Of a DNA stretch of 64,000 nucleotides, positions 22,538-43,273 are shown one piece after another. Positions within the stretch are counted from its first letter, which is position 1; every line of letters starts with the position of its first letter. Under the pieces are notes generated by a model, which saw only the letters and a list, made by a program, of their open reading frames with translations, was not told the DNA's origin and did not search any database. This stretch comes from Kosakonia radicincitans DSM 16656. GTDB taxonomy: Bacteria > Pseudomonadota > Gammaproteobacteria > Enterobacterales > Enterobacteriaceae. The position numbers were made by a program, and so were the translations under genes. The stretch is taken from contig NZ_CP018016.1 in the NCBI RefSeq assembly GCF_000280495.2, forward strand, positions 3,782,001 through 3,846,000, read 5' to 3'.

Positions 22538-22830
22538 TACGCATACTCCCTGTGCATCAGCACCGCAGTCTTCGCTGCCAGGCTGAAAGGTCAAATGAAC
22601 GGGACAAACGTTAATAGGAATTATTCTTGATTGCAATAATTACGCGTTTACCTCTTACCTGAACAAATCTGGCTTCATCTTCCTTCCACGACCGAACAAC
22701 GCAGAACACCAGGCGGCTTTCCTGCCTCTCCTCTCTCAACCAGGATAAATCTTATTCCGCGAAAAATAGCCCGATGTAGCATGACAACGCCTTGTTATCT
22801 TGTGGTTTTCATTTTTTCAAAGGGAATTTT

Positions 22831-23199: not shown

Positions 23200-23657
23200 T
23201 GCGTTTAATAATCTCATTATTGCTCGCGTGTTATCTGCCCTTCGCCAGCGCAAATACTGCCACCGATGTGCAGAAAAATATTACGGAATTCTATACCTTT
23301 TATCTGCATGAATTAGATAAAACACCGCCGGATGAAATGGCCAAAATGGAGAAAATGCACAAGTGGGTCTCCGGTAAATTACTGGCCCGCATTGCAGCTA
23401 TCTATAATATGCCTGAACAGGAGTTGCTGGGAGCCGACTATTTCACCTACAGCCAGGATTATGATCCGGCGTGGATCCCACGCCTGAAAGTTTCTCCGGC
23501 GTATCCTGATGGGGATAATCTTAAGCTCGATGTCTGGCTGGGTATAGAAGATAACAAGCTGGCGCATCTGCAGGTCTGGACATGCAAGGAAGACGGACAA
23601 TGGAAAATCTTCCGGGTTATTGATGCCGGGGAACATATCGAACAAAAATTGTATTAA
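23199..23657 (+). CDS. Probable periplasmic immunity protein (DUF3828-like)
   Basis: This 152-residue protein has a clear signal peptide (MRLIISLLLACYLPFASA) and a mature domain with FTYSQDYDPAW and WTCKEDGQWKIFRVID, which resembles the DUF3828 family. Its ATG overlaps the stop codon of the amidase gene (TGATG), so the two are translated together. A periplasmic location is what an immunity protein against a peptidoglycan amidase needs. The family assignment is from memory and the role is inferred from the pairing. Confidence 0.72.
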   Translation: MRLIISLLLACYLPFASANTATDVQKNITEFYTFYLHELDKTPPDEMAKMEKMHKWVSGKLLARIAAIYNMPEQELLGADYFTYSQDYDPAWIPRLKVSPAYPDGDNLKLDVWLGIEDNKLAHLQVWTCKEDGQWKIFRVIDAGEHIEQKLY

Positions 23658-23817: not shown

Positions 23818-26800
23818 TTAACGTCCGGCAAATCGGATATCCAGCGGCAGCACAATGACCGGGCGAGCATTTTTCTGACGTTTAATCCACGCGCCCTCTT
23901 GCCGCGGTTGTTCTGTAATGCGCGTTCCCTGTTCACGCAAAATCGTAATGACATGTTCGAACTCGGTTTCACTCACCGGCCGGGGCTGCCAGAATGTTTG
24001 CTGGTTATCGGTAAAAATGGGCTGTAATTCCAGCGCTGGCTGTGTGCCCCCTAAGGACAAACGCACGATAAAACCGTACGGCGGCATTCCGCGTGACTGA
24101 TACTCTCCGTTGCTGTTGAACACGCCATTACCAATGCTGTAGAGCACCCAGCCTTGCCCGGTACGCAGGATATCGCCAGGAATATGCGGGCCGGAGCCAA
24201 TAATCAGATCGGCGCCAGCATCCATCAACCGCTTCGCAAGCTGGCGCTGCTGAGGGCGTGTCCATTGATAATCTTGCCCCCAGTGAGCCAGCACAATCAG
24301 CGTTGCCGGATCGTCGCTGCGTTTTTCCTCGCGCAGCTTTTCCGTTAATCCTCCACTGATACAGGCAACGCCTGCGCGGCGGGGCTGCGCGTAGAAAGCG
24401 CAATCCTGCTCCATATATTGTCGAAACCAGTAAGCGCTGAAAAATTTAAAACGCCTGTCGTTGATCGCCAGCGTCAACGGCGCATGCGCCTGTGTGGCAT
24501 TCATTCCCGCGCCAAACGTTGATATTCCTTGCTGATGAAAAGCATCCAGTGTACGACGTAGCCCGGCGATCCCCGCGTCCATTGCATGATTATTTGCCAG
24601 CGTCACAGCATCAATGCCATGATTTTTTAAGGTCACCGTTGTCGCGAGCGGATCGCCGGTAAGACAAAAGGGTTTACGCCCCGCCAGCGTGCCTTGCGTG
24701 CTCTCGGTGAGCGCCGCTTCAAAATTCGCGATCGTCAGATCGCTCCCCGCCAGTAGCGGCGCAATGCCGAGGAACGCGTGATCGTAACCGTAACGTTGCA
24801 GCCCATCATCGATGCCGCGGCGCTGACGCTGGCGCGTGTACCACTCGCCACAATAGGTGTCGCCCAGCAGCGCCACGGTAATGTCGTTTTTATCGAAGGT
24901 GATGACCTGCTCATCATTAACCACCGTTGCCTCTCCTTCCGCCTGCGCTAACAATTCATCCAATAAATAATCGAGATGAAAAGCATCATCTGCACCAGCG
25001 GCACAGGCCAGCCATAGCTCGCCGCCGTGGCGATGAATGGCAAATCCCCAGCGCGGTGTCCCGCCGGAGCTATAGCTGTAGCTGGCGCGGCCTGCGGCCT
25101 GAATGTTGCTGCTCTTGCGGTAAAGCCGCTCGCCAGACACCATTTCGCTTTCGGCAAACCAGTGCAGAAAATGAGGAAAATGGTGGTAAAAATGGCGAAC
25201 CAGCTGCGCGATATCCTGCACCGTTGTTTGCTGCTGCCGCCACAACCGCCCCGACACATTACTGATTTGCGTCTGCGTCATCTTCAGCGCCTTTGCCTGC
25301 GCCTGCACGCGCGAAAGCGCCGCCGCCGTATCGCCGGCCAGATAATGCGCCAGGTTAACGGCGGCATCTCTGGCGTTGTGAATGATCATCGCCTGCAGCA
25401 GACATTTTACGCTGTACTCTTGTCCCGCTTTCAGCCCCAATGCCGGGCCTTTTTGCAAAATACCGGCAGGCACCGTTTTCGCGGTGATGGGGGTGGTCAG
25501 CGCGCTGTTGTTTTTGTTCTGCCGGGCAGCAAGTTGCGTAATTAATAACAGATGACTTAAATGCAAGGGTTCGAAAACCGCATCAGCATGGCACGACACC
25601 ACCTGCTCACCGCGGGAAAGATTGATCAACACACCCGCCGTCTGACCCTCTTTTAACGCTGGCGCCGCACGACGGCTGATATTTTTCATTCGCCTGACGA
25701 TCTGATGGAAGTCGGAGTCACTGACGCTGCCTTTTACCAGAACCACATCCCCCGCTTTCAGCCCGGCCATCACGCTTTCAGCCATCTCGTCAACCCGGGT
25801 AAAGTGGCCGCTGACCCGTCCGGCAGGCAACACGGCCATCAAATCCCGCATCTCTTCGCCATGCAACCAGACCCGATCAAAACCAGCCTGCAGCAGAGGT
25901 TCCGCCAGGGCAATATGGCTCTCTTTAGCCAGTTCGCCGAGGGTTGCCAGCCGCCCGAGAACCGCAACACGCCGTTGCCCTGGACGCATTTGATACAGGG
26001 AGGCAACTTCAAATGCATTGCACATTGAGGTCAGCGTAGCGTTATAGTTGTCATCAATTAGCGTCACCGAACCGCCGCCAGGCAGCGTCATTGTCCCGGT
26101 TTGTAATTTATTTTTATGATTACGGTAATCTGCAATACGTCCGGCCGCTTTATTGATATCGCCGCCTGAAAAATGAATGGCAATTAGCGCAGCAACAGAA
26201 TTTCTCGCCATGCCTTTTCCCGGCACATTCAGTTGATATTTAATTGCCGTGCCGTTGAATAAAATTTCTATTATTGAGTGGTCCGTTTCCGCTGCATAAT
26301 TTGTGACAGGAACATCAGCCTGCGGATGAAAACCATAACTGATTACGCGGGCGCCGTAGCGAATAGCCTCCTGAGATACAAAATCATATTCATCCATATC
26401 ACGATTTAATATCGCGTAGCCGCCAGGTAAAATCGCATTGCATAACCGTGTTTTAAAACGTGCAGTATCACGCAATGTTTTCACATTACGCCCCACCTGC
26501 GTCATGCCTATTTCCGTGATGATAACAATGTGGGGTTTTATTCGCGTCCCCGCGCCGCCAGACTGCATCCATAATGCGGAAATAGCCACTTCCAGCACCG
26601 CATGTTGTGGATCGGTAATACAGCGAGCAAGGCTTACCATCGTTCCGGTTCGGGTATTATGGTTCCCTTGTGTCGCAATCGTGGCCCCCTCCTCCGCCAG
26701 CAACATATGTAATAAATCTTTCGTCGATGATTTCCCTACCGTACCGGTGATAGCAATAATGGTGCCATTCATCCGACGGCGTGCTTCATCGGCGAGAACC

Positions 26801-27147
26801 GGTAATACATCATAGGTATTTTCCACAACCATTTGCGGAAACCCGTCAGGAAGCTCCGCAAGATAATGCTGAACAATTGCGCCACAGAAGTGATGATAAT
26901 TATTTTTTAATACTTCATGAGTATCTTTCCAGCCCGCATAAATACCCATATTCCCGGAACCGGCATGCCAGGTTTTTTCATCCATCGCGATAAATAAACA
27001 TTTACCGTTATTTTTTTGGGTATCAACCATGGTTAGCGCAATATTATCTGCCCGCCAGTCTGTGCCAGGTTGTACGTGCCATTTACTGCCCAGCAAACGC
27101 TCAAGCTCCGCGCTTTGCCATCCTCGCTGATGTGCATTGTTTGACAT
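23818..27147 (-). CDS. Three-domain fusion: Mur ligase, degenerate S11 peptidase, CapA
   Basis: This 1,109-residue protein joins three domains. Residues 1-495 are a MurF-like ligase with ATP loop GTVGKSS (135-141), the later NYNA and the C-terminal ligase domain. Residues 503-735 follow the S11 (DacA/DacC) fold, but the SxxK active site reads HLSH (His529, His532), and SGN and KTG are also gone, so it cannot be a normal carboxypeptidase. Residues 755-1100 are a CapA/PgsA metallophosphatase-like domain with LLGD, NFE (808-810), NNH (852-854), HWG and GPH. MurF-like ligases and CapA occur together in poly-gamma-glutamate systems. No signal peptide is visible. The start overlaps the hydrolase gene by 47 bases. 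The polymer is unknown. Confidence 0.87.
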   Translation of the reverse strand: MSNNAHQRGWQSAELERLLGSKWHVQPGTDWRADNIALTMVDTQKNNGKCLFIAMDEKTWHAGSGNMGIYAGWKDTHEVLKNNYHHFCGAIVQHYLAELPDGFPQMVVENTYDVLPVLADEARRRMNGTIIAITGTVGKSSTKDLLHMLLAEEGATIATQGNHNTRTGTMVSLARCITDPQHAVLEVAISALWMQSGGAGTRIKPHIVIITEIGMTQVGRNVKTLRDTARFKTRLCNAILPGGYAILNRDMDEYDFVSQEAIRYGARVISYGFHPQADVPVTNYAAETDHSIIEILFNGTAIKYQLNVPGKGMARNSVAALIAIHFSGGDINKAAGRIADYRNHKNKLQTGTMTLPGGGSVTLIDDNYNATLTSMCNAFEVASLYQMRPGQRRVAVLGRLATLGELAKESHIALAEPLLQAGFDRVWLHGEEMRDLMAVLPAGRVSGHFTRVDEMAESVMAGLKAGDVVLVKGSVSDSDFHQIVRRMKNISRRAAPALKEGQTAGVLINLSRGEQVVSCHADAVFEPLHLSHLLLITQLAARQNKNNSALTTPITAKTVPAGILQKGPALGLKAGQEYSVKCLLQAMIIHNARDAAVNLAHYLAGDTAAALSRVQAQAKALKMTQTQISNVSGRLWRQQQTTVQDIAQLVRHFYHHFPHFLHWFAESEMVSGERLYRKSSNIQAAGRASYSYSSGGTPRWGFAIHRHGGELWLACAAGADDAFHLDYLLDELLAQAEGEATVVNDEQVITFDKNDITVALLGDTYCGEWYTRQRQRRGIDDGLQRYGYDHAFLGIAPLLAGSDLTIANFEAALTESTQGTLAGRKPFCLTGDPLATTVTLKNHGIDAVTLANNHAMDAGIAGLRRTLDAFHQQGISTFGAGMNATQAHAPLTLAINDRRFKFFSAYWFRQYMEQDCAFYAQPRRAGVACISGGLTEKLREEKRSDDPATLIVLAHWGQDYQWTRPQQRQLAKRLMDAGADLIIGSGPHIPGDILRTGQGWVLYSIGNGVFNSNGEYQSRGMPPYGFIVRLSLGGTQPALELQPIFTDNQQTFWQPRPVSETEFEHVITILREQGTRITEQPRQEGAWIKRQKNARPVIVLPLDIRFAGR

Positions 27148-28003
27148 ACTTTAACTCTTGATTGCCTTTAAGATTATGATATTCAGGGGGATATGCAGGC
27201 GATTCAATTAAAGCGACGCGATGATGTTTATCACGCAATGCGCGTGCAAATTTAACCTGAAGTTCAAAGGGGGTGATTTGATCCTGAAGATTACCAATGA
27301 TCAGAATCTGACGCTGCGGGTCAGGAGGAATATTATCAATGTGGTAGAGCGGATCATAAGGATTATCCAGGCCGGTAATATCTTTCCCTGCATCGCTGCG
27401 CTCACCACGTTCTTTACGCAGCACTTCTGCCCGATTAAGAAGATCCCATGCTCCTGACGTTAAAATCGCACAGCGAATATCATTACGCCCGAGCGTTAAT
27501 AATGCTGAAGCCGCAGTTGCGCCGCCACTATGGCCTGTCAAAATAAACTGCCCGATATTGTATTGTTGTCGCAACTTGTCCAGCGTGGCGTTTAACGCCA
27601 GAAATTCAGCACGTTGCCGACGATTATAGTGATTACCGCTGGAGCCGTAAGTCCCTGGTCTGGCAACAATAACGACCGGCAGGCCGGTTCGTATACTGAA
27701 TTTTTGTGCGATTTTTCGTTGTGCCGTCGCGGTATTTGCCGGAATAGTTTGAGGATCGCGCTTGATAAAAGGCACACGATCGCCCAGAAATACCACCACC
27801 ACCAGGGGTGCATTCTGCATATTTCCACCTGCAAAATAGCGAATACAGTCAACTCCGCCATCATATTTTACCCAGACTTCATCAGCCGTAATGGGACAAT
27901 TACTGCTAATGGCTTTTTGATTCCATAACAAGGGTATATCCGCATAAACAGAAACGGATAAAAAAAATAATGTGATTATTCCGATACGCAGTGGAAATAA
28001 CAT
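27101..28003 (-). CDS. Secreted alpha/beta hydrolase
   Basis: This 300-residue protein has a signal peptide (about residues 1-21, ending SVYA) and an alpha/beta-hydrolase fold with nucleophile motif GHSGGA and a following serine-hydrolase acid region (IIGNLQDQITPF). His residues near YPPEYHNLK are candidates for the triad. Four Cys residues suggest disulphides in the periplasm. It is the first gene of a two-gene minus-strand unit with the Mur ligase/CapA fusion, which begins inside its last 47 bases, so the enzyme probably acts on the same product. It is divergent from the alpha/alpha-toroid gene with about 100 bp between. Confidence 0.83.
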   Translation of the reverse strand: MLFPLRIGIITLFFLSVSVYADIPLLWNQKAISSNCPITADEVWVKYDGGVDCIRYFAGGNMQNAPLVVVVFLGDRVPFIKRDPQTIPANTATAQRKIAQKFSIRTGLPVVIVARPGTYGSSGNHYNRRQRAEFLALNATLDKLRQQYNIGQFILTGHSGGATAASALLTLGRNDIRCAILTSGAWDLLNRAEVLRKERGERSDAGKDITGLDNPYDPLYHIDNIPPDPQRQILIIGNLQDQITPFELQVKFARALRDKHHRVALIESPAYPPEYHNLKGNQELKYVKQCTSARMAKRGA

Positions 28004-28107: not shown

Positions 28108-29787
28108 ATGTCGCTTCATCAATTACTTACACATATGCAGCCCGCCGCAGAACAACTGGATATTAGCACGCCTTCCTCTTCCTCACCTGGCTGGGTTATT
28201 TTTTTCAGCGCCAGCGATGGTAAAAGCCGTGCTCAGGTTGTGTGCGGGCGCGGCCAGCGTTTCGATGAAGCATGGCAGAACGGAGCTGCTGCATTGCAAC
28301 ATTCATGTGGTATCCGGGAAGCAGCCATGATCTGGCTGCGCGTTGATATCGTTGAACAGGTTGAAAAACTGCGTTGGGAGAAATTGCAGGAGAAGCTGGC
28401 GGCGACCAAACGTAACTATTTTCGTTGGGGATTAAGTTTCGATCCCGCTTTTAACTATGCCTTTCTGGAACAGGAAATTGCTGCCAACGCGCTGCTGTAT
28501 GATGGAAAACAGGGCGTCGCGACGCCCAATAGTGCAAATCTGGCGCACTTTACCCGGCGGCGTTTTGGTGCGCGATTCGACTGGCCGCAGGAGGCGGATC
28601 GGCCGATCTGGCGCTTCAAAACCAGAGCGCTTTTTTCCGACGGTAAAACGCTACTGCCCATTGAATCTCACGGGCGAAACTCAGGGTATCGTCAGCTAAC
28701 GCACTGGCAGGATGAACTGGAGATGATGATCCTGTCGGCCACCGATTATCTGGCGCGCCAGATAAAACCTGGCGGCCAATATGAATATGGCTGGTTTCCC
28801 TGTTTTGACCGCCGGATCCCCACCTACAACACGTTACGCCACGCCAGTTCGACCTATGCCTTACTTGAGGGCTGGGAGGTGAGCCGCAACGATGATCAGC
28901 GAAGGGCTATCGAACGCGCCCTGAAAAACCTGAGCGATGAGCTGATTCAAAATTATCAACTCCCCGATGGCAGCAGCGCGGATTTTCTTATCGATAGCGG
29001 TAATGAAATCAAGCTGGGCGGTAACGCAGTTTGCATCCTGGCAATGGCAAAACATGCTGAACTCACCGCCGACGATCGTTATCTTGCGCAGATGAACCGG
29101 CTGGCGAATGGCATTTGTTATATGCAGGATCCGCAAACCGGCGGTTTTGTGCATGTACTGCATGCAGCTGATTTATCACTAAAAGCTGAGCATCGCATTA
29201 TCTATTACGATGGCGAAGCCGCCTTTGCGCTGATGCGCCTGTACGGAATTACCCGCGAGCCGCGCTGGCTCTCCTGCGTTGAACGGGCGATGGGCTATTT
29301 TATCGCTCAGCGGCACTGGCAGGCGCACGATCACTGGTTAAGCTACTGCGTGAATGAGTTGACACTCTATCGTCCGCTTGAACGTTATTACCAGTTTGGC
29401 CTTGACAACGTTCATGGCCATCTTGATTTTGTACTGAACCGGATCACAACCTACCCAACACTGCTGGAACTGATGATGGCGGCGGCAAAAATGATAGCCC
29501 GCCTGACGGAATCTGAGCACCGGCATTTGTTAAAAGAACACGATCCTGAAAAATTTTCTCTGGCGCTGGAAACTCGCGCCCGTTATCTGGCTAATGGTTT
29601 TTTTTGGCCGGAACTGGCGATGTTTTTTAAAAATCCATCGCGTATCGTTGGCAGCTTTTTTATTCGCCACCACAGCTATCGGGTCAGGATTGATGATGTC
29701 GAACACTATCTTTCAGGTTACATCGCCTATCGAAAATACTGGCAACAACAAGCCGCTCAGAAAACTGAACAACACTCGGCTCTTTAG
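28108..29787 (+). CDS. Alpha/alpha-toroid (six-hairpin) protein of unknown activity
   Basis: I cannot name this 559-residue protein. Its middle and C-terminal parts show repeated helix pairs with aromatic and acidic turns ([47 protein letters not shown]), as in six-hairpin glycosidases, polysaccharide lyases and lanthionine-cyclase-like toroids. No signal peptide is seen, so it is probably cytoplasmic. GGGGAG precedes the start. It ends nine bases before lapG, so it is in the same operon as lapG and lapD, while the Mur ligase/CapA pair reads divergently. It may build or process the same surface polymer; that is inference. Confidence 0.72.
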
Positions 29788-29796
29788 TACTGACTT

Positions 29797-30501
29797 ATGA
29801 ACGGGCGCCTCTACTCAACCAGAGCAGGCCATGGCAGGCAGCGATATTTGTGCTTCTGGTTGTTGCTTGTGTTTCTTTTTTCTCCCGGCGGATTGGCGGC
29901 GAGATGGGATTTCAATGCCATTAATTCCCGCACGCACCAGTTATATGGCACAGCGACGCCAGCAGCTCAGCAACGGATTGATCAATGGGCAATATTGGTG
30001 AATAACCCGCCGCAGGAATCGATTAAAGGAAAGTTAAATCGTGTGAACCAGTTTTTTAATCAACGCATGCTTTTTCGCGATGACAAGCTGGTCTGGGGAA
30101 CGGAAGACTACTGGGCAACACCGATTGAATTTTTACGTAAAGGTGAAGGCGACTGCGAGGATTATGCATTAGCCAAATATTTCACATTGCGCGAAATTGG
30201 CGTGCCTGCCAGCCAGTTACGCATCACCTATGTCAAAGCAGTAAAACTGAACCAGGCGCATATGGTGGTGACGTGGTATGCCACGCCGGATGCGATCCCG
30301 TTGGTACTGGATAATTTGAATACCGCAATTTTACCGGCCACGCAGCGTCCGGATCTTCTGCCGGTTTATGCATTTAACGGCGAGGGGCTATGGCTGCCAA
30401 GAGCCGGGGGAAATAAACGTGTCGGCGACAGTAAGCGCTTATCCCGCTGGCAGGAGCTTCTCACAAGAATGCGGGCGGAAGGATTTGTCATTCAAGAATA
30501 G
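29797..30501 (+). CDS. lapG: LapG-type periplasmic cysteine protease
   Basis: LapG cuts the N-terminal anchor of a LapA-type adhesin and so releases cells from biofilm. This 234-residue bacterial transglutaminase-like protease has an N-terminal hydrophobic signal segment (about residues 18-34) and the Cys-His-Asp triad: Cys120 in GEGDCEDYALAKY, His155 in NQAHMVVTWY and Asp172 in LVLDNLN. It is followed ten bases later by lapD, its inhibitor, and by a matching adhesin. The ribosome-binding site ahead of the ATG is poor, so translation may depend on the upstream toroid gene. Confidence 0.93.
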   Translation: MNGRLYSTRAGHGRQRYLCFWLLLVFLFSPGGLAARWDFNAINSRTHQLYGTATPAAQQRIDQWAILVNNPPQESIKGKLNRVNQFFNQRMLFRDDKLVWGTEDYWATPIEFLRKGEGDCEDYALAKYFTLREIGVPASQLRITYVKAVKLNQAHMVVTWYATPDAIPLVLDNLNTAILPATQRPDLLPVYAFNGEGLWLPRAGGNKRVGDSKRLSRWQELLTRMRAEGFVIQE

Positions 30502-30510
30502 GAGATTGCC

Positions 30511-32448
30511 ATGTCATTGTATAAGCAGCTACTGATCGGCATCTGTCTGTTTACATTGGTTCTTTTATGCGGAAATTACGTGATCACGCTTGAAAGCTCA
30601 CGTGAGCAATACAGTAATCAGCTGAACTCGCACGCTCAGGATGCCGCGACCGCGCTGGGCGTTGCACTGACCGGCCATATTGACGACCCGGCAGTGATCG
30701 AGCTGATGGTAGATTCCATTTTTGACAGCGGTTATTTCTACAGCATTCGCCTGGTCGATGTGAAGAGTGGTAAGACGTTAATTGAGCGAAAAGGCACGCC
30801 GCAAAGTGCGAATGTTCCCCAGTGGTTCGCACATCTCGTGAGACTGCGGCCAGGCGTGGGCGATGCCATTGTGATGAATGGCTGGATTCAGGCAGCACGT
30901 GTTGAAGTGGTCAGCCATCAGATGTTTTCTGTGGCCCGGTTATGGAACAATATGGTCGCCAGTTTCCTGTGGTTGAGCCTGTGCAGTTTGCTGTGCATCC
31001 TGTGCGCGATGTTCATGTTGCACCGCAGCCTGCGCCCCTTGAATAACGTTGTTGAGCAGGCTCGCTCCATCTGCCACCGCGAGTTTCGCAAAGTCACCGA
31101 TGTACCTAAAACGCCGGAGCTGATGCGCGTTGTCGAAGCCAGCAACATGATGGTTTCGCAACTGAAAGCCCTGTTTCATGAGCAAGCAGAACGCACCGAA
31201 TCTCTGCGTGAAGCCGCCTATCGCGATAGCCTGACGGAACTCAATAACCGCCGCGCGTTTGATATCAAACTGCAATCACTGCTGAGCGACGAAGAGAGCA
31301 AAGAAGGGAACCTTATTTTACTGCGAGTGCAGGATCTTATCGGGTTGAATCAGCGCATCGGCGCAGAAAAAGCCGATGAACTACTGAAATCTATTGCCAC
31401 TATTTTGCGCGAACTACAGAAACGCTTCCTGCGCAACGAGGGTTTTCTCGCCCGCATTCGCGGCAGTGAATTTGCTCTCCTGACCGGCGAGTTTCTTCCG
31501 CCAGAACTGGAAAACACGTTGTCCAGGCGGCTGAAAGCGCTTAACGACACGGGGATGAGCGATACCTCGCCCGTCGCCTATTTCACGCATGTTACGTTTC
31601 GCATGGGTGACACGCCACAGGCGGTGCTGACGCAGGCCGATCACGCGCTGGCGGAGGCCGAAACGGAGAAACATTACGCCGCCGAACCGTGGATAACAGC
31701 AACGGGATACAGTGAGGAGAACCATCACCAGTGGCTTAGCAAACTCGAAAAAGTATTGAATGCAGAAAAGTTTATCCTTTACGCGCAGCCGGTATTTTCC
31801 TGTCACGATCAACAGCGCATTTTGCACTATAAAGTGCTGGCGCGAATAAAAGAGGATAATGGCGAATTAACGCCTGCCGGACATTTCATGCCCTGGATTC
31901 ATCGGTTTTCACTTAGCTTTCGTATGGATTTAGTCATGCTTAAGCAAATACTGCGTGAAATGACAAATATCCCCTACCCTTTAGCGCTGAGCATCAGCGG
32001 TGAAAGCGTAGCGAATGACGAAAAACTGGATGCGATATTACAGCTGTTAAAAAATGCGCCAAATCAGGCCAGTAGCTTAACACTCGAACTGGATGAAAAT
32101 GAATTGCCCCATGCCGAACGCGTCAATGAACTGGTTAATAAACTTAAAGCCGTGGGTTGCCATCTGGGTATTCAGCATTTTGGCGGTAGATTCAATTTGA
32201 TAGGTAATTTACCTCAATGGGGGCTGGCCTGGATAAAAGTGGACGGCGCCTATATTCATCTTATTGATACAGAAGAAGACAAGAGAATTTTTATTGAAGC
32301 GATGTACTGGGCAACCCGGCAAATTGATCTTCCGCTTATTGCTGAGCGAGTGGAAACATCCGGAGAATTAGCGATACTCAATAAAATAGGTCTCTACGGG
32401 GCAATGGGGCGTTACTTCGGCGATCCCGGTTTATTGTCGAAACAATAA
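30511..32448 (+). CDS. lapD: LapD-type c-di-GMP receptor
   Basis: LapD senses c-di-GMP in the cytoplasm and, when bound, holds LapG in the periplasm so the adhesin stays on the surface. This 645-residue protein has a first membrane segment (about residues 6-26), a periplasmic domain, a second membrane segment (about 150-172), HAMP, GGDEF and EAL domains. Both enzymatic signatures are degenerate: GGDEF reads RGSEF (31459-31473) and EAL reads KVL (31831-31839), as in known LapD receptors. It therefore binds rather than makes or degrades c-di-GMP. AGGAG precedes the start. It lies between lapG and a small conserved gene. Confidence 0.95.
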   Translation: MSLYKQLLIGICLFTLVLLCGNYVITLESSREQYSNQLNSHAQDAATALGVALTGHIDDPAVIELMVDSIFDSGYFYSIRLVDVKSGKTLIERKGTPQSANVPQWFAHLVRLRPGVGDAIVMNGWIQAARVEVVSHQMFSVARLWNNMVASFLWLSLCSLLCILCAMFMLHRSLRPLNNVVEQARSICHREFRKVTDVPKTPELMRVVEASNMMVSQLKALFHEQAERTESLREAAYRDSLTELNNRRAFDIKLQSLLSDEESKEGNLILLRVQDLIGLNQRIGAEKADELLKSIATILRELQKRFLRNEGFLARIRGSEFALLTGEFLPPELENTLSRRLKALNDTGMSDTSPVAYFTHVTFRMGDTPQAVLTQADHALAEAETEKHYAAEPWITATGYSEENHHQWLSKLEKVLNAEKFILYAQPVFSCHDQQRILHYKVLARIKEDNGELTPAGHFMPWIHRFSLSFRMDLVMLKQILREMTNIPYPLALSISGESVANDEKLDAILQLLKNAPNQASSLTLELDENELPHAERVNELVNKLKAVGCHLGIQHFGGRFNLIGNLPQWGLAWIKVDGAYIHLIDTEEDKRIFIEAMYWATRQIDLPLIAERVETSGELAILNKIGLYGAMGRYFGDPGLLSKQ

Positions 32449-33150: not shown

Positions 33151-36100
33151 ATGAGTGTCGGGGTCGTAAAAACAGTTATAGGACAAGTCTTTGCGACCTC
33201 CCCTGATGGAAGCAGACATCTGCTGGTTGAAGGCGACACAATCCAGGAAGGAGAGCAAATAGATACGGGTGCCGCAGGTGCCATTTCGATTACCTTATAC
33301 GATGGAAAAACCCTCGATTTGGGCCGTGATACCCATTGGGATAGCCACGACGTTGCTTTAACCGCGGACTCCGAAACCCCATCCACAGACGTTGAAGCCA
33401 TCCAGCAGGCGATTGCCGCCGGGCAGGACCCGACGCAAACCCTTGAAGCACCTGCCGCAGGCCCGAATGCCAACGCCACACCCGCCGCGCCGGATGGCGG
33501 TGAGGAAGGCGGTAGCCACACTCAAGTCATCCTCGATCTTACCGGTGAGATCCTCGATCCCACCGCCGGATACCCCACTGCCGGAATTGATAATCCCGAT
33601 GGCGACCTGCGTGAAGAATTAGGCCTTCCTGCATCCGAACAAGGCCCCGAAATCGCTGGCGCGAATGCAGATGCGGATGCTGACTCCGATGCTGATGCTG
33701 ATGCCGACGCGGATGCCAATGCGGATGCCGATGCGGATTCCGACGCTGATGCCGACGCCGATGCGGACGCGGATTCTGACACGGATGCCGATGCAGATTC
33801 GGACGCCGATGCTGATGCGGATGCGGATGCGGATGCAGATTCGGACGCCGATGCCGATGCAGACGCCGACTCCGATGCTGATGCGGATGCGGATGCGGAT
33901 GCGGATGCGGATGCGGATGCGGATTCAGATGCAGATTCGGACGCCGATGCAGACGCCGATGCAGACGCCGATGCTGATGCTGATGCTGATGCTGATGCTG
34001 ATGCTGATGCTGATGCTGATGCTGATGCTGATGCTGATGCAGATTCCGACGCGGATGCTGATTCTGATGCGGATTCCGACGCTGACTCGGATGCGGACGC
34101 CGATTCTGACGCTGATGCGGATGCAGATGCTGATGCGGACGCGGATGCCGACTCCGACGCCGATGCCGATACCGATGCTGATTCGGATGCCGACGCGGAT
34201 GCAGATGCGGATGCAGACTCTGATGCTGACTCCGACTCGGATGCGGACGCTGATGCCGATGCGGACTCCGATGCAGATTCCGACGCGGACTCTGATGCCG
34301 ATGCAGACGCCGATTCCGATGCTGATGCCGATGCCGACGCGGATACTGATGCGGACACCGACGCGGATGCTGATGCGGATGCGGACTCCGATTCCGACGC
34401 CGATTCCGATGCGGATGCCGACGCAGACGCTGATGCAGACACTGATGCCGATGCGGACTCCGATGCCGATGCAGACGCCGACGCCGACGCAGATGCAGAT
34501 GCAGATGCAGATGCAGATGCGGACGCTGATGCTGATGCCGATGCCGATGCCGATTCCGACGCAGACACTGATGCAGATGCCGATGCGGATGCCGACGCAG
34601 ACGCTGATGCAGACACTGATGCCGATGCGGACTCCGATGCCGATGCAGACGCCGACGCAGATGCAGATGCAGATGCAGATGCAGATGCCGACGCTGATGC
34701 CGATGCAGACTCCGACGCAGATGCTGATGCTGATGCTGATGCAGACGCTGATGCGGATGCAGATTCCGACGCGGATGCAGACGCAGATGCCGACGCTGAT
34801 GCAGATGCGGACTCCGATGCGGATGCGGACGCCGATGCGGATTCTGATGCAGACTCCGACGCTGATGCAGACTCCGACGCCGACTCGGACGCAGATTCCG
34901 ATGCCGACGCCGATGCTGACTCCGATGCCGATGCCGACGCGGATGCTGATGCAGATTCCGACGCCGACGCAGACGCCGATGCGGACTCTGACGCGGACGC
35001 GGATGCCGATTCAGACGCTGATGCGGATGCAGACGCCGACGCAGACGCAGACGCAGACGCCGATGCCGACTCTGATGCAGATTCGGATGCCGACGCTGAT
35101 TCGGATACCGATGCAGATGCGGACTCCGATGCCGACGCGGATGCGGATGCAGATGCCGATGCGGATTCGGACGCGGATGCCGATGCGGACGCGGACGCGG
35201 ATGCCGACGCAGATGCAGATGCAGACGCGGATGCAGATGCGGACGCTGATGCGGATGCTGACTCCGACGCGGACGCGGATGCAGACGCAGATGCAGATTC
35301 CGATGCAGATGCAGATGCAGATGCAGATGCAGATGCAGATGCAGACGCCGATTCTGACGCAGACTCTGATGCGGATGCGGACTCTGACGCGGATGCCGAT
35401 GCCGATGCGGATGCGGATTCTGACGCAGATGCTGATGCGGATTCCGACGCCGATGCGGATTCTGATGCAGACTCCGACGCTGATGCAGACTCCGACGCCG
35501 ACTCGGACGCAGATTCCGATGCCGACGCCGATGCTGACTCCGATGCCGATGCCGACGCGGATGCTGATGCAGATTCCGACGCCGACGCAGACGCCGATGC
35601 GGACTCTGACGCGGACGCGGATGCCGATTCAGACGCTGATGCGGATGCAGACGCCGACGCAGACGCAGACGCAGACGCCGATGCCGACTCTGATGCAGAT
35701 TCGGATGCCGACGCTGATTCGGATACCGATGCAGATGCGGATTCCGACGCTGACTCGGATGCGGACGCCGATTCCGATGCTGATTCTGACGCCGATGCGG
35801 ATTCTGACGCTGATGCGGATGCGGACTCCGATGCAGATTCGGATGCGGATGCAGATGCAGACGCCGATTCCGACGCTGATGCGGATGCCGATTCTGACGC
35901 TGATGCTGACTCGGATGCCGACGCTGACTCGGATGCCGATGCGGATGCGGATGCCGATTCTGATGCGGATTCCGACGCCGATGCGGATTCTGATGCAGAC
36001 TCCGATGCCGACGCGGATGCGGATGCAGATGCCGATGCGGATTCGGACGCAGACGCAGACTCCGACGCAGATGCAGACTCCGACGCAGATGCTGATTCTG

Positions 36101-39100
36101 ATGCGGATTCCGATGCTGATGCAGACTCGGATGCAGATTCTGACGCCGATGCCGACTCCGACGCGGATGCGGATGCCGATGCGGACTCCGACGCGGATTC
36201 TGATGCAGACGCGGATGCTGATGCGGATGCCGATGCGGATGCAGATTCTGACGCCGACGCGGATTCGGACGCCGACGCCGATGCGGATTCGGACGCCGAC
36301 GCCGATGCGGATTCGGACGCCGATGCCGACTCCGACGCTGATGCGGATGCCGATGCGGATGCAGATGCAGATGCAGATGCAGATTCCGACGCCGATGCCG
36401 ATACCGACGCTGATTCAGATGCCGACGCTGACTCGGATGCGGATGCGGATGCGGATTCCGACGCGGATGCTGATGCTGATGCTGATGCAGACGCCGACTC
36501 CGATGCCGACGCAGACGCAGACGCTGATGCGGACTCCGATGCAGATTCGGATGCCGATGCGGATGCGGATGCTGATTCGGACGCCGATGCCGATTCTGAC
36601 GCGGATGCTGATGCAGACTCCGACGCGGATGCGGATTCTGACGCAGACTCCGACGCCGATGCCGATGCGGACTCCGATGCTGATCACCCTTCTGATTCAG
36701 GCAGCGATTCGGATGTGCATCTGACTGTAACGGTGACGCCGGGCAGCAGTACGGATAATTCGTCTGACAATGACGTCATTCATATTAATGGCGGCAGCGG
36801 CAATCCAGATGGTTATGACATACAGAATGGCGTGATTGTTGCTATCGGCGACAACGTGCAGATCTGGCTGACGCCGGACAGCCCGGACGGCGCAATTCAG
36901 GGGGATTTTGTTCCCAAATGCAGCGATCCGAGTCAGATTCACTATTACGACAGCAACGGTAACGTGAACGGCAGCTCAGCCGGTCATACCGATATTTTTG
37001 TGGTGGGCGATCATACCGGCGGCTACTACCAGCAGGGTGACTGGTCGAACGATCACTATGATTTCCGTCCAGTCAATAATATTACCGGCAACCAGGGTGT
37101 ACCTGAGGGCGAAGCGGGCAAAGACTATATTTTTGTTAACGGTGACAGTTCGAATTACAACGTAACGGGCGTCGATCACCCGGATAACCATCAGAACAAC
37201 TCCGTTGATAACGTACAGATCACCAATACGGAAAATGGCTCGCACCCGATCGGTAATGCGAACGGTGTCGAAGGCATTATCTTTGGCGATGGCCCCTCTT
37301 CCAGTCTGGGCGGCTCTACGGATGTGACGCACTCCGTAACGCTGAACGTCGATGTGGATCTGCAAAGTTCCGACAGCAGCGATCATCTGCACTCGATCAC
37401 GATCAATGGTCTTCCGGAAGGGGCTCAATTTGGCGGCGAATATACCAGCGTCACCTACGATCCTGAGCATGGCAGCTACACGCTGACGTTTGATGACAGC
37501 ACTACCCATTACGACGGGCAGGTAACGGTTACCCTGCCGGATGGTGCAAGCAATCTCGGCGAGATAACCATAGATGTCGGCTCCACGGCATCTGATCATA
37601 TCGATCACGACTTCACCTTCGATGGCGAAGAAGGCGGGCAATTGACCAGCGGCACGGAGAGCGCGTCGGCTGATACCCTGCATCCAGTCTCAGAAAGCGT
37701 GGCTACAGATGTCACGCATGATGAAGCACACGCTACCACAACGGATGATTCCGGCACGACAGCGACGGATGACGCCAGCGCCGTAACCGCTGATGATGCA
37801 GGCACAACCACGGCTGAAGAGACTGCCAGCGACGCAGCCGCAGCGCAGCCCGATACGGCAGCAAGCAGCGATAGCAGCGCTCAGGCGGTGCCAGTCGCAG
37901 ACGTGACCGTGACCAGTATCGAAGCCGTTGATGTTCATCTCACGGTAGGCGTTACTCCGGGTAGCCAGTCGGAAGAGGCTTCTGATAACAACGTGATGCA
38001 TATCAACGGCGGTAGTGAAGATCCGAACGGCTACGATGTGCAGAATGGCGTCATTATCGCGATTGGCGACAACGTGCAAATCTGGCTGACGCCAGACAGC
38101 CCGGACGGCGCGATTAAAGGCGATCACGTTCCGGAATGCAGTAATCCGGGTCAGATTCACTATTACGACAGCAACGGTAACGTGAACGGCAGTTCGGCCG
38201 GTCATACCGATATCTTCGTGGTGGGCGATCACACTGGCGGCTACTACCAGCAGGGTGACTGGTCGAATGATCACTATGATTTCAGGCCAGTACATAACAT
38301 TACCGGCAATCATGGTGTGGCTGAGGGCAGCGCTGGCAAAGACTATATCTTTGTTAACGGTGACAGCGCGAATTACAACGTTTCCGGCGTCGATCACCCG
38401 GCAAATCACCAGAACAACTCCATCGATAACCTGCAAATTACCAATACCGAAAATGGCTCGCACCCGATCGGGAATGCGAACGGTATTGAAGGCGTTATCT
38501 TCGGTGACGGCCCCTCTTCCAGCCTGGGCGGCTCGACGGAGGTTACGCACTCCGTAACGCTGAAAGTCGACGTGGATCTGGAAAGTTCGGACAGCAACGA
38601 TCATCTGACGTCGATCACCCTTAACGGGCTTCCGGAAGGCGCTGAGTTTAGCGGTGAATATACCGACGTCAGCTATGACGGCGACAAAGGGTCGTACACC
38701 CTGACCTTTGACGAGCATGCCACCCATTACGATGGGCAGATTTCCGTCGACCTCCCGGAAGGCCAGCATGATATCGGTGATATCTCAATGGAGGTGAACT
38801 CTACCGCCTCTGAGCATCACGATACTGACTTTAGCTTCAATGCCGGGGAAGGCGGGCAATTCGTCAGCGGAACCGACATGACCGACAGCGACGATCACCC
38901 TGCGGATGACGCCGCTGATAGCGCGCACATTGAAGCCACCAGCGCAGCAGTGGATGACCTCTCGCATGCCGATGCCGGTGATACCCACGCGAATACCGAT
39001 GATACCCACACCGATGCCGGAGATGCACCTGCCGACGCAGAGACAGCCGCCGATACCGATGCGACGGCTGCCGATAACGCCAGTGCGCCATTACTGGTCG

Positions 39101-39585
39101 ATAGCAGTGAGATCAGTCTGGACTTTGGCAGCAGCGAAGATGCCGAAGCGCACGACGACCAGAGTATATCGACAACGGATGCAGGTTCGCTGAATAACCT
39201 GCTGGAAGACGATGGTGAGCAGGCTGAGAACGACACGGGCGGGACAGCGGATCACGCAACGCAGCCTGACAACAGCAGCGCTTCGGGTGAAGGCAGCGAA
39301 ACTGCCTCACAGGATAGCGGCGACAGCACCTCGCCAGGCCTTGACCAGGATCAGCAGATCAACTTCAGCGACATCATCCTTGATGGTGACGAACACCAGG
39401 ATCTGGCAAGACTTATCCAGGGTGACAGCGCGCCAGCCACGCCAGTCGATCCCACGGAGGATACCGATCATCCCGCCCCTGCCGCACCTCCCGGTGAAGG
39501 CGGCGATGACGCGGGCAGTGGTGATGGAGGCAGTCACGATGACATGGATAACTTGATCGCCAAACCCGACAGCGATGGAGGCTGA
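33151..39585 (+). CDS. Giant LapA-type adhesin with Asp-Ala/Asp-Ser repeat
   Basis: This 2,144-residue type I secreted adhesin has four parts. Residues 1-170 form a Lap-type retention module that plugs the outer-membrane channel, with a LapG cleavage candidate PAAG at 101-104. Residues about 172-1178 are almost pure (Asp-Ala/Ser/Thr) dipeptides, giving an enormous negative charge. Two collinear copies of a domain of about 315 residues follow (36712-37655 and 37930-38873, no indels), each with [18 protein letters not shown]. An acidic Ser/Thr-rich tail ends [13 protein letters not shown] see no GGxGxDxUx calcium repeats, which many LapA-type proteins have. The following genes encode its exporter. 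AGG precedes the start at normal spacing. Confidence 0.93.
34828..35123 (+). repeat. Direct repeat inside adhesin gene, copy 1
   Basis: A 296-bp stretch is identical at every base to 35446-35741, 618 bp downstream. In this codon-diverse region that cannot be chance; it records a recent segmental duplication. Confidence 0.92.
35446..35741 (+). repeat. Direct repeat inside adhesin gene, copy 2
   Basis: This is the second copy of the 296-bp segment at 34828-35123. A shorter pair of 77 bp (34408 and 34582, 174 bp apart) shows the same process elsewhere in the repeat. Confidence 0.92.
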
Positions 39586-39638: not shown

Positions 39639-40991
39639 ATGTTATATCGCAATACGCTGTTATTCGGAGTTGGGCTCTCGCTGCTTTTACTGAAAAGCGC
39701 GAACGCCACGACGCTTGAGCAAGCGGTGAAAGATGCCATCCTCTGGCATCCGGATGTGAGCGCTTCCAGTAATCGTCGCTATTCGGCGGAACAGGATCTG
39801 CGCGCAGCGCGTGGGGGATATTATCCCAGCGTGGAACTCTCTGCGGGAACGGGTTGGGAGCGAACGGATAACTCCACCACGCGCGCAGAGGGATACCATC
39901 GGCGCGATCTGCAACGCAACGAATCCAGCATTTCGGTGACGCAGAACCTGTTTAGTGGTTTTGCCACCCGTAGCGAAGTGGCCAGACAGACCGCCACGGT
40001 CAACTCCCGCGCCTGGACGGTACTGGACACCAGCGAAACGACGGCGCTGACGGCGATTCAGGCCTATCTGGATGTGCTGAGAGGTCGCCAGATGGTACTG
40101 CTGGCAGAAGATAACCTGAAAAACCACGAGCGTATTTTCGATCAAATTACCTTACGTACCGAGCAGGGCGTTGGCCGTCAGGCCGATTACGAACAAGCCG
40201 AAGCCCGACTGGCGCAGGCACGCAATAACCTGCTGACGGAACAGACCAACCTGGATGATTCGCTGGCGAATTATCAGAGCGTGGTTGGTAAAGAAGCCGA
40301 TGATCTCACCCTTCCTGCAAAGTCGGCGATCCCTGACTCGCTGGAAGCGGCGCGAAAAGTGATGTTGCAAAACAGTCCATTACTGAAACAAGCCGATGAA
40401 GATGTGGAAGCCACACGGCAACAATATGAAGCGGCGAAGTCACGTTTTTACCCCAGCGTAAATCTGGAAGTGGCGCGCACAATGGATGACAACATTGACG
40501 GCACCCGGGGCCATAACCAGGAATGGCAGGCGATGGTGCGCATGAGTTACAACCTCTACAACGGCGGCAGTGATAAAGCGGCCTTAATGTCCGACGCTTA
40601 CAAAATGAAGGAAGCGCAGGATGTCAAAAACAACGCCCTGCGCCAGCTTAACGAAGAGTTACGCCTCTCCTGGAACGCGTTACAGAACGCCGAGAAACAG
40701 GTTCCTATCGCCAAAGATTATGCAGATCGAAGCAAGACGGTTCGCACCGCTTATCAGGAGCAGTTCAGCTTAGGCGATCGGTCACTGCTGGATATGCTCG
40801 ACAGCGAAAACGAAGTCTTCACCGCGCAACGCCGTTACGTTGAGCTGCAATTTATCGAGATGTTTACGACGTACCGTATCAACGCACGTACCGGAACATT
40901 ACTCAAGACACTAAATATCCAGCCGCCCTCTTCGGCTCAGCCCGTTGACGAGTTGCAAACTTCAAAAGTCGAATTGCCGGAACTGAAGTAA
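39639..40991 (+). CDS. lapE: LapE, TolC-type outer-membrane channel
   Basis: This 450-residue outer-membrane efflux protein forms the outer-membrane exit of a type I secretion system and, in Lap systems, the pore that holds the adhesin's retention module. A signal peptide (about residues 1-23, ending ANA) is followed by TTLEQAVKDAILWHPDV, typical of the family, and two repeats of long helical pairs with the NLFSGF and NLYNGG beta-strand turns. AAGGTG precedes the start. It lies 53 bases after the adhesin stop codon and ahead of lapB. Confidence 0.93.
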   Translation: MLYRNTLLFGVGLSLLLLKSANATTLEQAVKDAILWHPDVSASSNRRYSAEQDLRAARGGYYPSVELSAGTGWERTDNSTTRAEGYHRRDLQRNESSISVTQNLFSGFATRSEVARQTATVNSRAWTVLDTSETTALTAIQAYLDVLRGRQMVLLAEDNLKNHERIFDQITLRTEQGVGRQADYEQAEARLAQARNNLLTEQTNLDDSLANYQSVVGKEADDLTLPAKSAIPDSLEAARKVMLQNSPLLKQADEDVEATRQQYEAAKSRFYPSVNLEVARTMDDNIDGTRGHNQEWQAMVRMSYNLYNGGSDKAALMSDAYKMKEAQDVKNNALRQLNEELRLSWNALQNAEKQVPIAKDYADRSKTVRTAYQEQFSLGDRSLLDMLDSENEVFTAQRRYVELQFIEMFTTYRINARTGTLLKTLNIQPPSSAQPVDELQTSKVELPELK

Positions 40992-41092
40992 CAGTTCGGA
41001 TTCAGGCAAGGGTATTTCAGGTGTTCCGGATGGAATATTCCCTTATTGGTTCTCCGCATAGCAGATTCACCGCTGGTTTGAGAGGTCAGAAT

Positions 41093-43273
41093 ATGACGCA
41101 ACATGATGATTCTCAAGATAACACTGATTCGTCTAATGAGATTCTCAGGAGCGATCCACGACAGACACATGACGATCCTTTACTGGATTGCCTGATGATT
41201 GTCTGCACGCTGCACAACATTACTACGTCGCGTCACGCCTTAACGTCCGGGCTGCCGCTAAAAAACCATACGCTGATCCTCAGCATTTTTCCGCGCGCGG
41301 CGGCACGGGTCGATTTGAAAGCGAGAACGCTCCAGCGCCCGCTTCAGACTATCTCTTCCCACTCATTACCGGCGATCCTGCTGCTGAAAAACAACCAGGC
41401 TGCCGTGCTGGTCGCCTGGGACGGAGAAAAGGCGCGGCTGTTACCGAGTGAAACGGAAGGTGGGGAAATTACCCTGACGCGCGAAGAACTGGAGGAGGAT
41501 TACAGCGGTGTCGCGATCTTTCTCCAGCCGCAGCATGAATACGATACACAAGCGACGGCGAAGATTCCGCGTACCAAAAACTGGTTCCAGGATACGCTGA
41601 AGCTCTCGAAGTTTCTCTATATCGATGCGGTGATTGCCAGTCTGCTGGTTAATATCATCGCACTGGCCGCTCCACTGTTCGTTATGAACGTCTATGATCG
41701 CGTCGTACCCAATCAGGCGACGGTGACGTTATGGGTGCTGGCAATTGGCATTACCATTGCCTACTTTTTTGATTTTATTCTGAAAATATTGCGCGGCATG
41801 TGTCTGGATCTGGCGGGTAAAAAAACGGATCTGATCGTTTCTGCGGCGCTATTTGAACGCATGCTGGGCATGAAGATGAAGCTTCGCCCGCCGCGCGTCG
41901 GAAGCTTTGCGCAAAATTTCCAGGAGTATCAGTCAGTGCGCGATTTTCTCTCCTCGCTGACGCTGACCGGGATGATCGACTTTCCTTTCACCCTGCTCAT
42001 TGTACTGGTCATCGGCATCATCGGCGGCCCGCTGGTTTTTATTCCGCTGGTCGCCTACCCGGTTGCGTTGGTGGGTAACTGGCTGCTCCAGCGCCCGTTG
42101 ATGTCCAGAGTCCAAAAAACGTTCCGCTTGTCCAGCGAGCGTCAGGCCATGCTGGTCGAAACCCTGACCGGGCTTGATGCCATCAAAGTGAATAACGCGC
42201 AAAGCGAACGCCAGTATCAGTGGGAACAGATTATTGGTCAGCTCAGTAAAATGGAATTGAAGGTGAAATCGCTCTCGTTCGTCGCGGTTAACTTTACCTC
42301 GTGGGTGCAGCAGGCCAGCGGAGTGGCGATTATCGTCGCCGGGGTTTATGTCATTATCAGCGGTAATCTCACCCAGGGCGGCCTGGTTGCCTGCTACTTA
42401 CTGCATCGCCGCGCCATGATGCCTGTCGGACAGCTTTGCGGGCTGATTACCCGTTATCAACGGGCAAAAACCACCAAAGAAACCGTGGATCGCATGATGG
42501 ATCTGGAGCAGGAGATCCACGACGATGAGGTTCCGTTAAAACGCGAGAAACTCTCTGGCGCGATTGAGTTCCGCGATGTCACGTTTCACTATCCATCCAA
42601 TCAATATACATCGCTGAATAATATTTCTCTGACTATCAAGCCGGGCGAAAAAATCGGCATTATTGGCCGCAGCGGTTCCGGCAAAAGCTCGCTGGCAAAA
42701 TTGCTGGTCGGCTTCTACCAGCCGGATGCAGGCAGCATATTGATTGACGATATCGATGCCCGGCAGTTGGATGTGCATGAGCTGCGCCACAACATTGGCT
42801 ATGCGCCGCAGGATATTCATTTATTTAGCGGCACGTTGCGCGACAACTTGCTGTATGGCGCCAGCTATATGGATGAAGAAGCGATGCTGCAGGTGGCTAC
42901 AATCACCGGCGTGCATGAGTTCGCGCGTCGCCATCCCTCCGGCTATAACATGCGCGTGGGAGAGCGTGGAATGAACCTTTCCGGCGGCCAGCGCCAGGCG
43001 GTGGCGCTGGCCCGCGCGCTGCTGCTCAATCCCCCCATTTTGTTGATGGATGAACCGACCAGCTCAATGGATAACACGAGCGAAGAACTGATCAAAAAAG
43101 CCTTGATGCCGGTGGTAGCCGATAAAACGCTGTTATTGGTGACCCACCGCGCTTCATTACTGTCACTGGTTGAACGACTCATCATTCTCGATAACGGCAA
43201 AATCATTGCCGATGGTCCGAAAGAGAGTGTGATGAGTGCTCTGAAAAAGGGGCAAATCCATGCGAATCGTTGA
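41093..43273 (+). CDS. lapB: LapB, type I secretion ATP-binding permease
   Basis: This 726-residue inner-membrane exporter has an N-terminal C39-like domain without the catalytic Cys motif (about residues 25-150), a membrane domain with five or six segments (about 175-450), and an ATPase domain with Walker A GRSGSGKSS, signature LSGGQRQ and Walker B LLMDEPTSSMD. The inactive peptidase-like domain usually binds unfolded substrate. Start 41093 is chosen because AGAGGT lies six bases upstream; an open frame reaching back to 41021 has no such site. Its end overlaps lapC by 14 bases. Confidence 0.94.
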   Translation: MTQHDDSQDNTDSSNEILRSDPRQTHDDPLLDCLMIVCTLHNITTSRHALTSGLPLKNHTLILSIFPRAAARVDLKARTLQRPLQTISSHSLPAILLLKNNQAAVLVAWDGEKARLLPSETEGGEITLTREELEEDYSGVAIFLQPQHEYDTQATAKIPRTKNWFQDTLKLSKFLYIDAVIASLLVNIIALAAPLFVMNVYDRVVPNQATVTLWVLAIGITIAYFFDFILKILRGMCLDLAGKKTDLIVSAALFERMLGMKMKLRPPRVGSFAQNFQEYQSVRDFLSSLTLTGMIDFPFTLLIVLVIGIIGGPLVFIPLVAYPVALVGNWLLQRPLMSRVQKTFRLSSERQAMLVETLTGLDAIKVNNAQSERQYQWEQIIGQLSKMELKVKSLSFVAVNFTSWVQQASGVAIIVAGVYVIISGNLTQGGLVACYLLHRRAMMPVGQLCGLITRYQRAKTTKETVDRMMDLEQEIHDDEVPLKREKLSGAIEFRDVTFHYPSNQYTSLNNISLTIKPGEKIGIIGRSGSGKSSLAKLLVGFYQPDAGSILIDDIDARQLDVHELRHNIGYAPQDIHLFSGTLRDNLLYGASYMDEEAMLQVATITGVHEFARRHPSGYNMRVGERGMNLSGGQRQAVALARALLLNPPILLMDEPTSSMDNTSEELIKKALMPVVADKTLLLVTHRASLLSLVERLIILDNGKIIADGPKESVMSALKKGQIHANR

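Follow-up and report, generated by a model that had tools for sequence, protein, structure and literature searches.

Dedicated enzymes that decorate the dipeptide repeats of surface adhesins have been described before. According to the excerpts of the reports cited here, SdgA and SdgB read the DSD repeat of a surface adhesin and glycosylate its Ser-Asp repeats (PMC8561734), and GtfC and GtfD, encoded in the pls locus of the S. aureus SCCmec, modify the repeat of Pls, GtfC being a protein of 538 aa with 69% identity to the S. epidermidis form that helps to glycosylate the Ser-Asp repeats (PMC5230774). A different chemistry, the addition of Arg to Asp side chains, is assigned to the Mur-like domain of cyanophycin synthetase in the excerpt of PMC9262961. 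Here we describe a locus of Kosakonia radicincitans DSM 16656 within a stretch of 64,000 nucleotides (contig NZ_CP018016.1, positions 3,782,001 to 3,846,000), called the window hereafter, in which the gene for a fusion of a MurF-type ligase, an S11 peptidase-like domain and a CapA domain lies next to a divergent gene for a 559-aa protein (p559) and near a giant LapA-type adhesin with a long Asp-X dipeptide repeat. We propose that the fusion acts in the cytoplasm as a protein-modifying enzyme, works with p559 and is dedicated to the Asp-X stalk of the adhesin, a proposal to which we give an even chance; that the system acts on the adhesin is, taken by itself, probable. Most likely, the fusion represents the ligase branch of a wider Asp-X adhesin modification system, the glycosyltransferase branch of which is already known from Pls.

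The window resembles the pls locus in that a p559-family protein adjoins an adhesin with Asp at every second place and a second enzyme completes, or in the window would complete, the modification. In the described part of the pls system the role of second enzyme falls to a glycosyltransferase with Ser as its target (PMC5230774). The window has the MurF-S11-CapA fusion in its place, mostly Ala as X, and an adhesin of the LapA type that is secreted by a type I system. SdgA and SdgB are likewise dedicated to a repeat of a surface adhesin but, unlike the enzyme proposed for the window, they are glycosyltransferases with Ser as acceptor (PMC8561734, as excerpted). The cyanophycin synthetase CphA1 shares with our proposal a Mur-like domain that amidates a poly-Asp backbone on its side chains, and the use of ATP-grasp domains seen at other p559 loci; according to the excerpted text it makes its own backbone, whereas that proposed for the window is a ribosomal adhesin (PMC9262961). 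Moreover, cyanophycin synthetase combines an ATP-grasp domain (G) and a Mur-like domain (M) in one chain, whereas we found no ATP-grasp match within the 1109-aa fusion, and the sequence similarity between the two is only remote (35.3 bits with 7wac).

The p559 gene (28108..29787, forward strand) has no Pfam match, and residues 198-552 of its product (28699-29763, forward strand) form an (alpha/alpha)6 barrel. It is about 40% identical to staphylococcal relatives over residues 76-547; in the alignment the value is 35-37%, and the invariant motifs are common to both. The six staphylococcal p559 proteins are 538-544 aa long, with 68-70% identity between those linked to Mur and the two S. epidermidis forms. 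They fit the description of GtfC in the excerpt of PMC5230774 in their length of about 538 aa, in their position next to a surface protein with Ser-Asp or Ala-Asp repeats and in the 69% identity. Judged by length, place and identity, and with GtfC being compared by its published description, p559 thus very likely belongs to the GtfC family. Several public names have been given to relatives of p559, among them poly(glycerol-phosphate) alpha-glucosyltransferase, Mur ligase and GH88 or GH127 protein (P0160, P0238), and PF07470 is precomputed on three of them (P0197, P0259, P0289); these names seem to have been carried over from domains fused to p559 or encoded beside it, or to reflect a similar fold. 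A 552-aa neighbour in Thioclava was also considered as a p559 and rejected, as no similarity to p559 was found and its one match, to GH88, is weak (E 0.00079).

Across genomes p559 is the constant partner of the system and the second enzyme is the part that varies. The second enzymes (called by Pfam on chosen examples and by tblastn for the rest) are glycosyltransferases of family GT4, as a C-terminal fusion, or of family GT2, as an N-terminal fusion, three ATP-grasp regions, Mur alone, Mur-S11, Mur-S11-CapA and CapA-Mur. One-chain fusions with p559 include a Brevibacillus protein of 1722 aa with the order p559-MurF-S11-CapA (P0070), a Psychrobacter p559-Mur-S11 protein (P0119, S11 by Pfam), 13 proteins of the type p559-CapA-x-MurF (P0097, P0098, P0100, P0102, P0103, P0105, P0106, P0108 and P0110-P0114) and, at locus L033, p559 joined to other ATP-dependent ligase domains with the three ATP-grasp regions. 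In the fetched loci, tblastn also placed a CapA gene beside p559 in Acinetobacter, Mur-type genes beside it in Staphylococcus plasmids and Variovorax, and p559 and Mur within one open reading frame (ORF) in Agrobacterium.

The proposed substrate is the adhesin of 2144 aa (33151..39585, forward strand), which has no Pfam match and an N-terminus common to the adhesins of other LapG/LapD loci. Its residues 191-1178 (33721..36684, forward strand) form an unbroken Asp-X repeat core of 988 aa. Over 1035 flagged residues, Asp occupies 505 of 517 Asp places and X is Ala in 74% and Ser in 21%. The protein contains about 490 Asp-containing pairs, mostly Asp-Ala. Orthologues of LapG and LapD stand beside it: the periplasmic protease LapG (29797..30501, forward strand; NF045674, 357.6 bits against a cut-off of 320) and the cyclic di-GMP receptor LapD (30511..32448, forward strand), which has LapD_MoxY_N, GGDEF and EAL domains and scores 948 bits with NF045673 over residues 1-639, below the cut-off of 1020. 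Downstream, and also on the forward strand, are the type I secretion genes, assigned by similarity to annotated genes: a TolC-like outer-membrane part (39639..40991, from TolC-type genes of related loci), an ABC transporter (41021..43273, from permease/ATPase genes of type I systems) and an HlyD-type periplasmic adaptor (43260..44624). The locus is like the LapA/LapD/LapG systems, in which the same kinds of genes lie side by side.

Asp-X stretches, defined as alternating Asp at ≥70% over a 40-residue window in any stop-free frame of the fetched DNA, were found in 35 of the 49 p559 loci that span 7 kb or more and in seven of the eight loci fetched after the rule had been seen, giving 42 of 57. 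The 49-locus set leaves out p559 loci shorter than 7 kb, which are mostly short copies of places refetched at full length, and L088, which is the same place as L022; L066 is counted as positive from L085, in which its full ORF has a 115-residue Ser-Asp stretch. Asp is conserved in the repeats while X varies, and their carriers are diverse: Pls-, SdrF- and SdrD_B-type staphylococcal proteins, BapA-type adhesins in Agrobacterium and Sulfitobacter, LapA-type adhesins in enterobacteria and a Listeria LPXTG protein with Ala-Asp repeats. The last of these, at locus L026, is presumably Lmo1799, for which 226 AD repeats are given in the excerpt of PMC8687577. As a matched control we chose 16 LapB-type regions among the matches listed, ten of which have an adhesin and eight of these also LapD; in the other six no adhesin was seen, and L080 has a fragmented adhesin. 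All 13 LapD loci with p559 carry the repeat versus one of the eight LapD loci with no p559 nearby, the other seven being thus unlike the window. The lone positive control, L070, comes from a genome that has p559 elsewhere. In that genome the L070 region (G027:C1:2627000-2646900) holds a second LapA-type adhesin, with an Asp-Ser repeat, far from the only p559 match, a layout in which p559 may act in trans.

Some loci depart from these arrangements. At L103 (7916-8518) a repeat of about 200 residues of Asp-Gly, possibly a further repeat type, lies near a p559 relative and no recognised enzyme. L058 (5751-8084) has a molybdopterin oxidoreductase gene divergent to p559 where others carry Mur or hydrolase genes, and the ORF at this place in L060 (5831-8164) is equally long; the repeat is still Asp-Ala in both.

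The identity of X follows the type of the second enzyme. Among loci that combine a repeat with a recognised enzyme, X is Ser in nine of ten GT4 loci and Ala in the tenth, whereas it is Ala in 20 of 22 loci with an amide ligase (Mur or ATP-grasp) and Ser in two; the only GT2-type locus, L061, has Thr. The table of GT4 or ligase against Ser or Ala gives a Fisher value of 1.8e-5, which is not independent evidence because the loci are not phylogenetically independent. The contrast is also seen separately within Staphylococcus (L029 and L122 versus L021, L027 and L028) and within the enterobacteria. Four of the five later loci with both enzyme and repeat agree with the rule and L121 does not; two further genome scans added few loci. 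A glycosyltransferase partner goes with a repeat that offers hydroxyls, and an ATP-dependent amide ligase with one that offers mainly Asp carboxylates: with Ala as X, Asp is the sole reactive side chain in the repeat.

The fusion itself (23818..27147, reverse strand) is a chain of 1109 aa, and the initial annotation, made from the letters alone, was right that Mur ligase, S11 and CapA are joined in it and that a hydrolase gene overlaps it. Its MurF-type domain covers residues 5-490 (25678..27135), the S11 or PBP6-like domain residues 501-739 (24931..25647) and the CapA (PF09587) domain residues 753-1104 (23836..24891), all on the reverse strand. We aligned 42 sequences, the window protein and 41 picked from the 120 matches listed. 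The fold and conserved motifs of MurF are present, T134, G135, G138, K139, E186, K232, D365 and D366 being unvarying in all 42, and the ligase joined to S11 has intact motifs. However, the fusion differs from MurF (UDP-MurNAc-tripeptide D-alanyl-D-alanine ligase) in carrying S11 and CapA, in its accessory distribution and in scoring below curated levels, with 223.2 bits for NF010693 (cut-off 544) and 201.2 bits for TIGR01143 (cut-off 288.6). In the S11 domain the fold of D-Ala-D-Ala carboxypeptidases is present but the SxxK, SxN and KTG motifs are not retained, and the domain is catalytically dead. The report that Ser and Lys of SxxK are both His holds for the window (H529 and H532) and fails as a family trait: HxxH was rejected as a motif, since the double His is one among several states in the alignment, where the nucleophile column has Ser in none of the 42 and the general-base Lys is kept in one. 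The loss of the catalytic residues agrees with the earlier suggestion that the domain may serve as a binding module. In the Psychrobacter protein P0119 the S11 motifs are intact (ASLAK, SSN and KTG within residues 1150-1359), unlike in the 42 aligned CapA-fused sequences, so that a dead S11 domain is not general in p559-Mur-S11 chains.

The CapA domain matches the lasso peptide epimerase MslH along its whole length, with a calcineurin-like fold. A sequence search of the PDB with this part gave three MslH sequences, the molecule name of which is still poly-gamma-glutamate synthesis protein, and one chance match at E 0.99. D763, N808, E810, N853, H854, D857, H955 and H988 are unvarying in all 42 sequences. 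In the printed alignment, Glu44, Asn87, His88, Asp91 and His295 of MslH, the roles of which are taken from the excerpt of PMC10406935, align with E810, N853, H854, D857 and H988; D763 is tentatively equated with MslH Asp11 solely because it lies at a fitting distance from where the structural match begins, and the alignment does not cover the stretch of H955, where the MslH metal ligands would be His259 and His261. No membrane segment is visible, the maximum hydropathy being 1.37 over 19 residues, which speaks against a membrane-anchored CapA and fits a cytoplasmic task.

Mur-type domains couple ATP-activated carboxylates to amines. We infer the substrate, the donor, the order of the steps and the product as follows. 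p559 would engage the unfolded (Asp-Ala)n chain ahead of export; the MurF-type domain, with ATP, would activate Asp side-chain carboxylates and join to them an amine, either an amino acid or a short peptide. As MurF handles D-Ala-D-Ala and S11 domains bind it, our guess for the donor is this dipeptide or a similar D-peptide. The dead S11 domain would hold the D-peptide or the product, and the MslH-like CapA domain would epimerise a C-alpha in the repeat or in the attached group. The decorated adhesin would leave by the type I system and be held or released by LapD and LapG, with the secreted hydrolase trimming the decoration outside. That amides are formed on Asp could equally well prove right or wrong in our judgement, and that epimerisation occurs is possible but doubtful.

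p559 was found in 18/198 family, 14/398 phylum, 5/275 order and 2/262 class genomes, in samples that overlap and include the genome of the window. The fusion was found in 3/198 family genomes and in 3/398 phylum genomes, the latter being the own genome and two that match the ligase part only, and no DNA match to it was found in the E. coli genomes. Within Kosakonia, the search for the same fusion proposed with the initial annotation was successful, as it is found in 5 of 15 genomes, the same five that hold p559 and all with the matched frame free of stops, besides the one-chain form of Brevibacillus. In Pigmentiphaga, a Mur-S11-CapA fusion (L008, 13361-16603) adjoins a second protein, distinct from it, that has hexapeptide repeats and several matches to ATP-grasp, in a region that also holds hydrolase and type I secretion genes. 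This locus is not among the 57, having no p559 within its 23 kb; p559 and an Asp-Ala repeat are found farther along the same contig (L115).

Several observations weigh against dedicated Asp ligation. The enzyme type of a locus was counted from a tblastn match anywhere in the fetched stretch and not from adjacency, and there are three exceptions to the Ala/Ser rule, L056 (GT4 with Ala) and L091 and L121 (Mur with Ser), the Mur gene of L121 being annotated as two coding sequences. In a tree of 49 p559 proteins only three, or at most four, independent pairs differ in enzyme type; X changes in the same way in 2.4 of 3 and never in the opposite one, and the sign test, of low power, is not significant. 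No repeat was found in the stretch read for 15 of the 57 p559 loci. Among these are the two A. baumannii loci, which have a CapA gene, L090 and L092 of genome G562, L118 and several contigs of metagenome-assembled genomes. The repeat was still absent after adding flank in A. baumannii, Variovorax, L090, L092, L094, L095, L099 and L100. Some of these contigs end near the place expected for the adhesin and those of L090 and L092 do not; the distance between the p559 of L090 and the repeat that was counted at L091 is about 14 kb. Conversely, in Listeria and Enterococcus p559 occurs with Asp-Ala repeats at loci where the stretch contains no ligase. The excerpt of PMC8561734 names no p559-like partner for SdgA and SdgB. 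No product or activity of the system is known, nor have we seen reported chemistry for any Mur-type member; among the open-licence PMC papers listed we recognised none that connects Asp-X adhesins to a Mur ligase or to CapA, which is weak evidence of absence. Finally, the staphylococcal relative of p559 serves glycosylation, an analogy that leans to sugar chemistry, as does the resemblance of the p559 barrel, at the fold level only, to sugar enzymes (2-epimerases), and the Ser retained in the window repeat makes O-linked chemistry possible.

In a rival reading, the ligase would build an amide-bearing small-molecule or nucleotide-sugar donor, by MurF-like chemistry on a sugar acid, which p559 would transfer to Ser or Thr of the repeat as an unusual O-glycan with no amide on Asp. 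We consider this unlikely because the ligase-type repeats of L023, L031, L032, L033 and L117 are 92-95% Ala with Ser at or below about 1%, leaving almost nothing to O-glycosylate, and the annotations of L023, L032 and L033 include no sugar-nucleotide gene. CapA and Mur-type ligases are also classic parts of poly-gamma-glutamate synthesis, and the clustering of biofilm genes would suit a fusion that makes a separate surface polymer, like poly-gamma-glutamate or another poly-amino acid, sharing with the adhesin only the biofilm context. The initial annotation had read the genes as a pathway for an amide-linked surface polymer or a peptidoglycan modification. However, compared with the CapB/CapC/CapA synthase the fusion has a ligase nearest to MurF and no membrane segment, the CapA relatives with structures are MslH peptide epimerases, and no CapC (PF14102) match was found in the genome of the window, a B. 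subtilis control being positive; the missing CapC match and membrane segment led us to reject a poly-gamma-glutamate synthase. A separate polymer of any kind, which would predict neither one-chain fusions with p559 nor the link between X and enzyme type, is improbable.

The nearness of the ligase to the MurF models and the cell-wall fold of S11 would suit a role in peptidoglycan modification or recycling, the ligase re-adding D-Ala-D-Ala or another group to muropeptides and S11 acting as a sensor. We regard this as still less probable given the patchy spread among family genomes, the tie to p559 and repeat-adhesin loci, the scores under both MurF cut-offs and a separate MurF-like gene (28% identical) elsewhere in the genome for the normal task. 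No locus with separate domains serving cell-wall recycling was seen among those read, although no search was aimed at it. Decay of the locus or passive hitchhiking, for which the loss of the S11 nucleophile in all 42 sequences could be taken as a sign of general loss of function, is very improbable in view of the unvarying ligase and CapA residues and the stop-free frames of the Kosakonia holders. The p559 gene and the Asp-Ala adhesin, both missed in the initial annotation, point instead to modification of a secreted protein and not of a free polymer or peptidoglycan.

If modification of the Asp-X stalk is right, it would explain why adhesins of Gram-positives and Gram-negatives have hundreds of Asp-X pairs, the repeat being a scaffold for dense decoration in which X tells the chemistry. 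It would also mean that large secreted proteins can be modified by Mur-ligase and peptide-epimerase chemistry, assign a function to p559, a family with no Pfam model that is often named glucosyltransferase, and amount to cyanophycin-like chemistry (amide ligation, perhaps epimerisation, of Asp repeats) on a ribosomal protein. There is a fair chance that this represents a new class of protein modification, with bearing on the biofilm stalks of environmental and clinical bacteria. In a more tentative extension, many or most Asp side chains of ribosomal poly(Asp-Ala) stalks would be decorated by Mur or ATP-grasp amide ligases and partly epimerised by the MslH-type domain, yielding a cyanophycin-like or D-peptide-bearing polymer, while the same p559 module would serve glycosyltransferases on Ser-Asp and Thr-Asp repeats, repeat and enzyme being a swappable pair in Gram-negatives and Gram-positives.

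The gene overlapping that of the fusion by 47 nt (27101..28003, reverse strand) encodes an alpha/beta hydrolase with a signal-like N-terminus and a GHSGG motif. Relatives of it were found at 11 of the 29 p559 loci of the ligase type, at none of the ten of the GT4 type and at one of nine with no recognised enzyme, which upholds its earlier coupling to the fusion; if exported, it may edit the product outside the cell. Beside the end of the fusion gene, on the forward strand, are a 135-aa protein with no Pfam or NCBIfam match (22792-23199) and a DUF3828 protein (23199-23657), a pair (22792-23657) that we take to resemble a small cell-wall amidase effector and its immunity protein.

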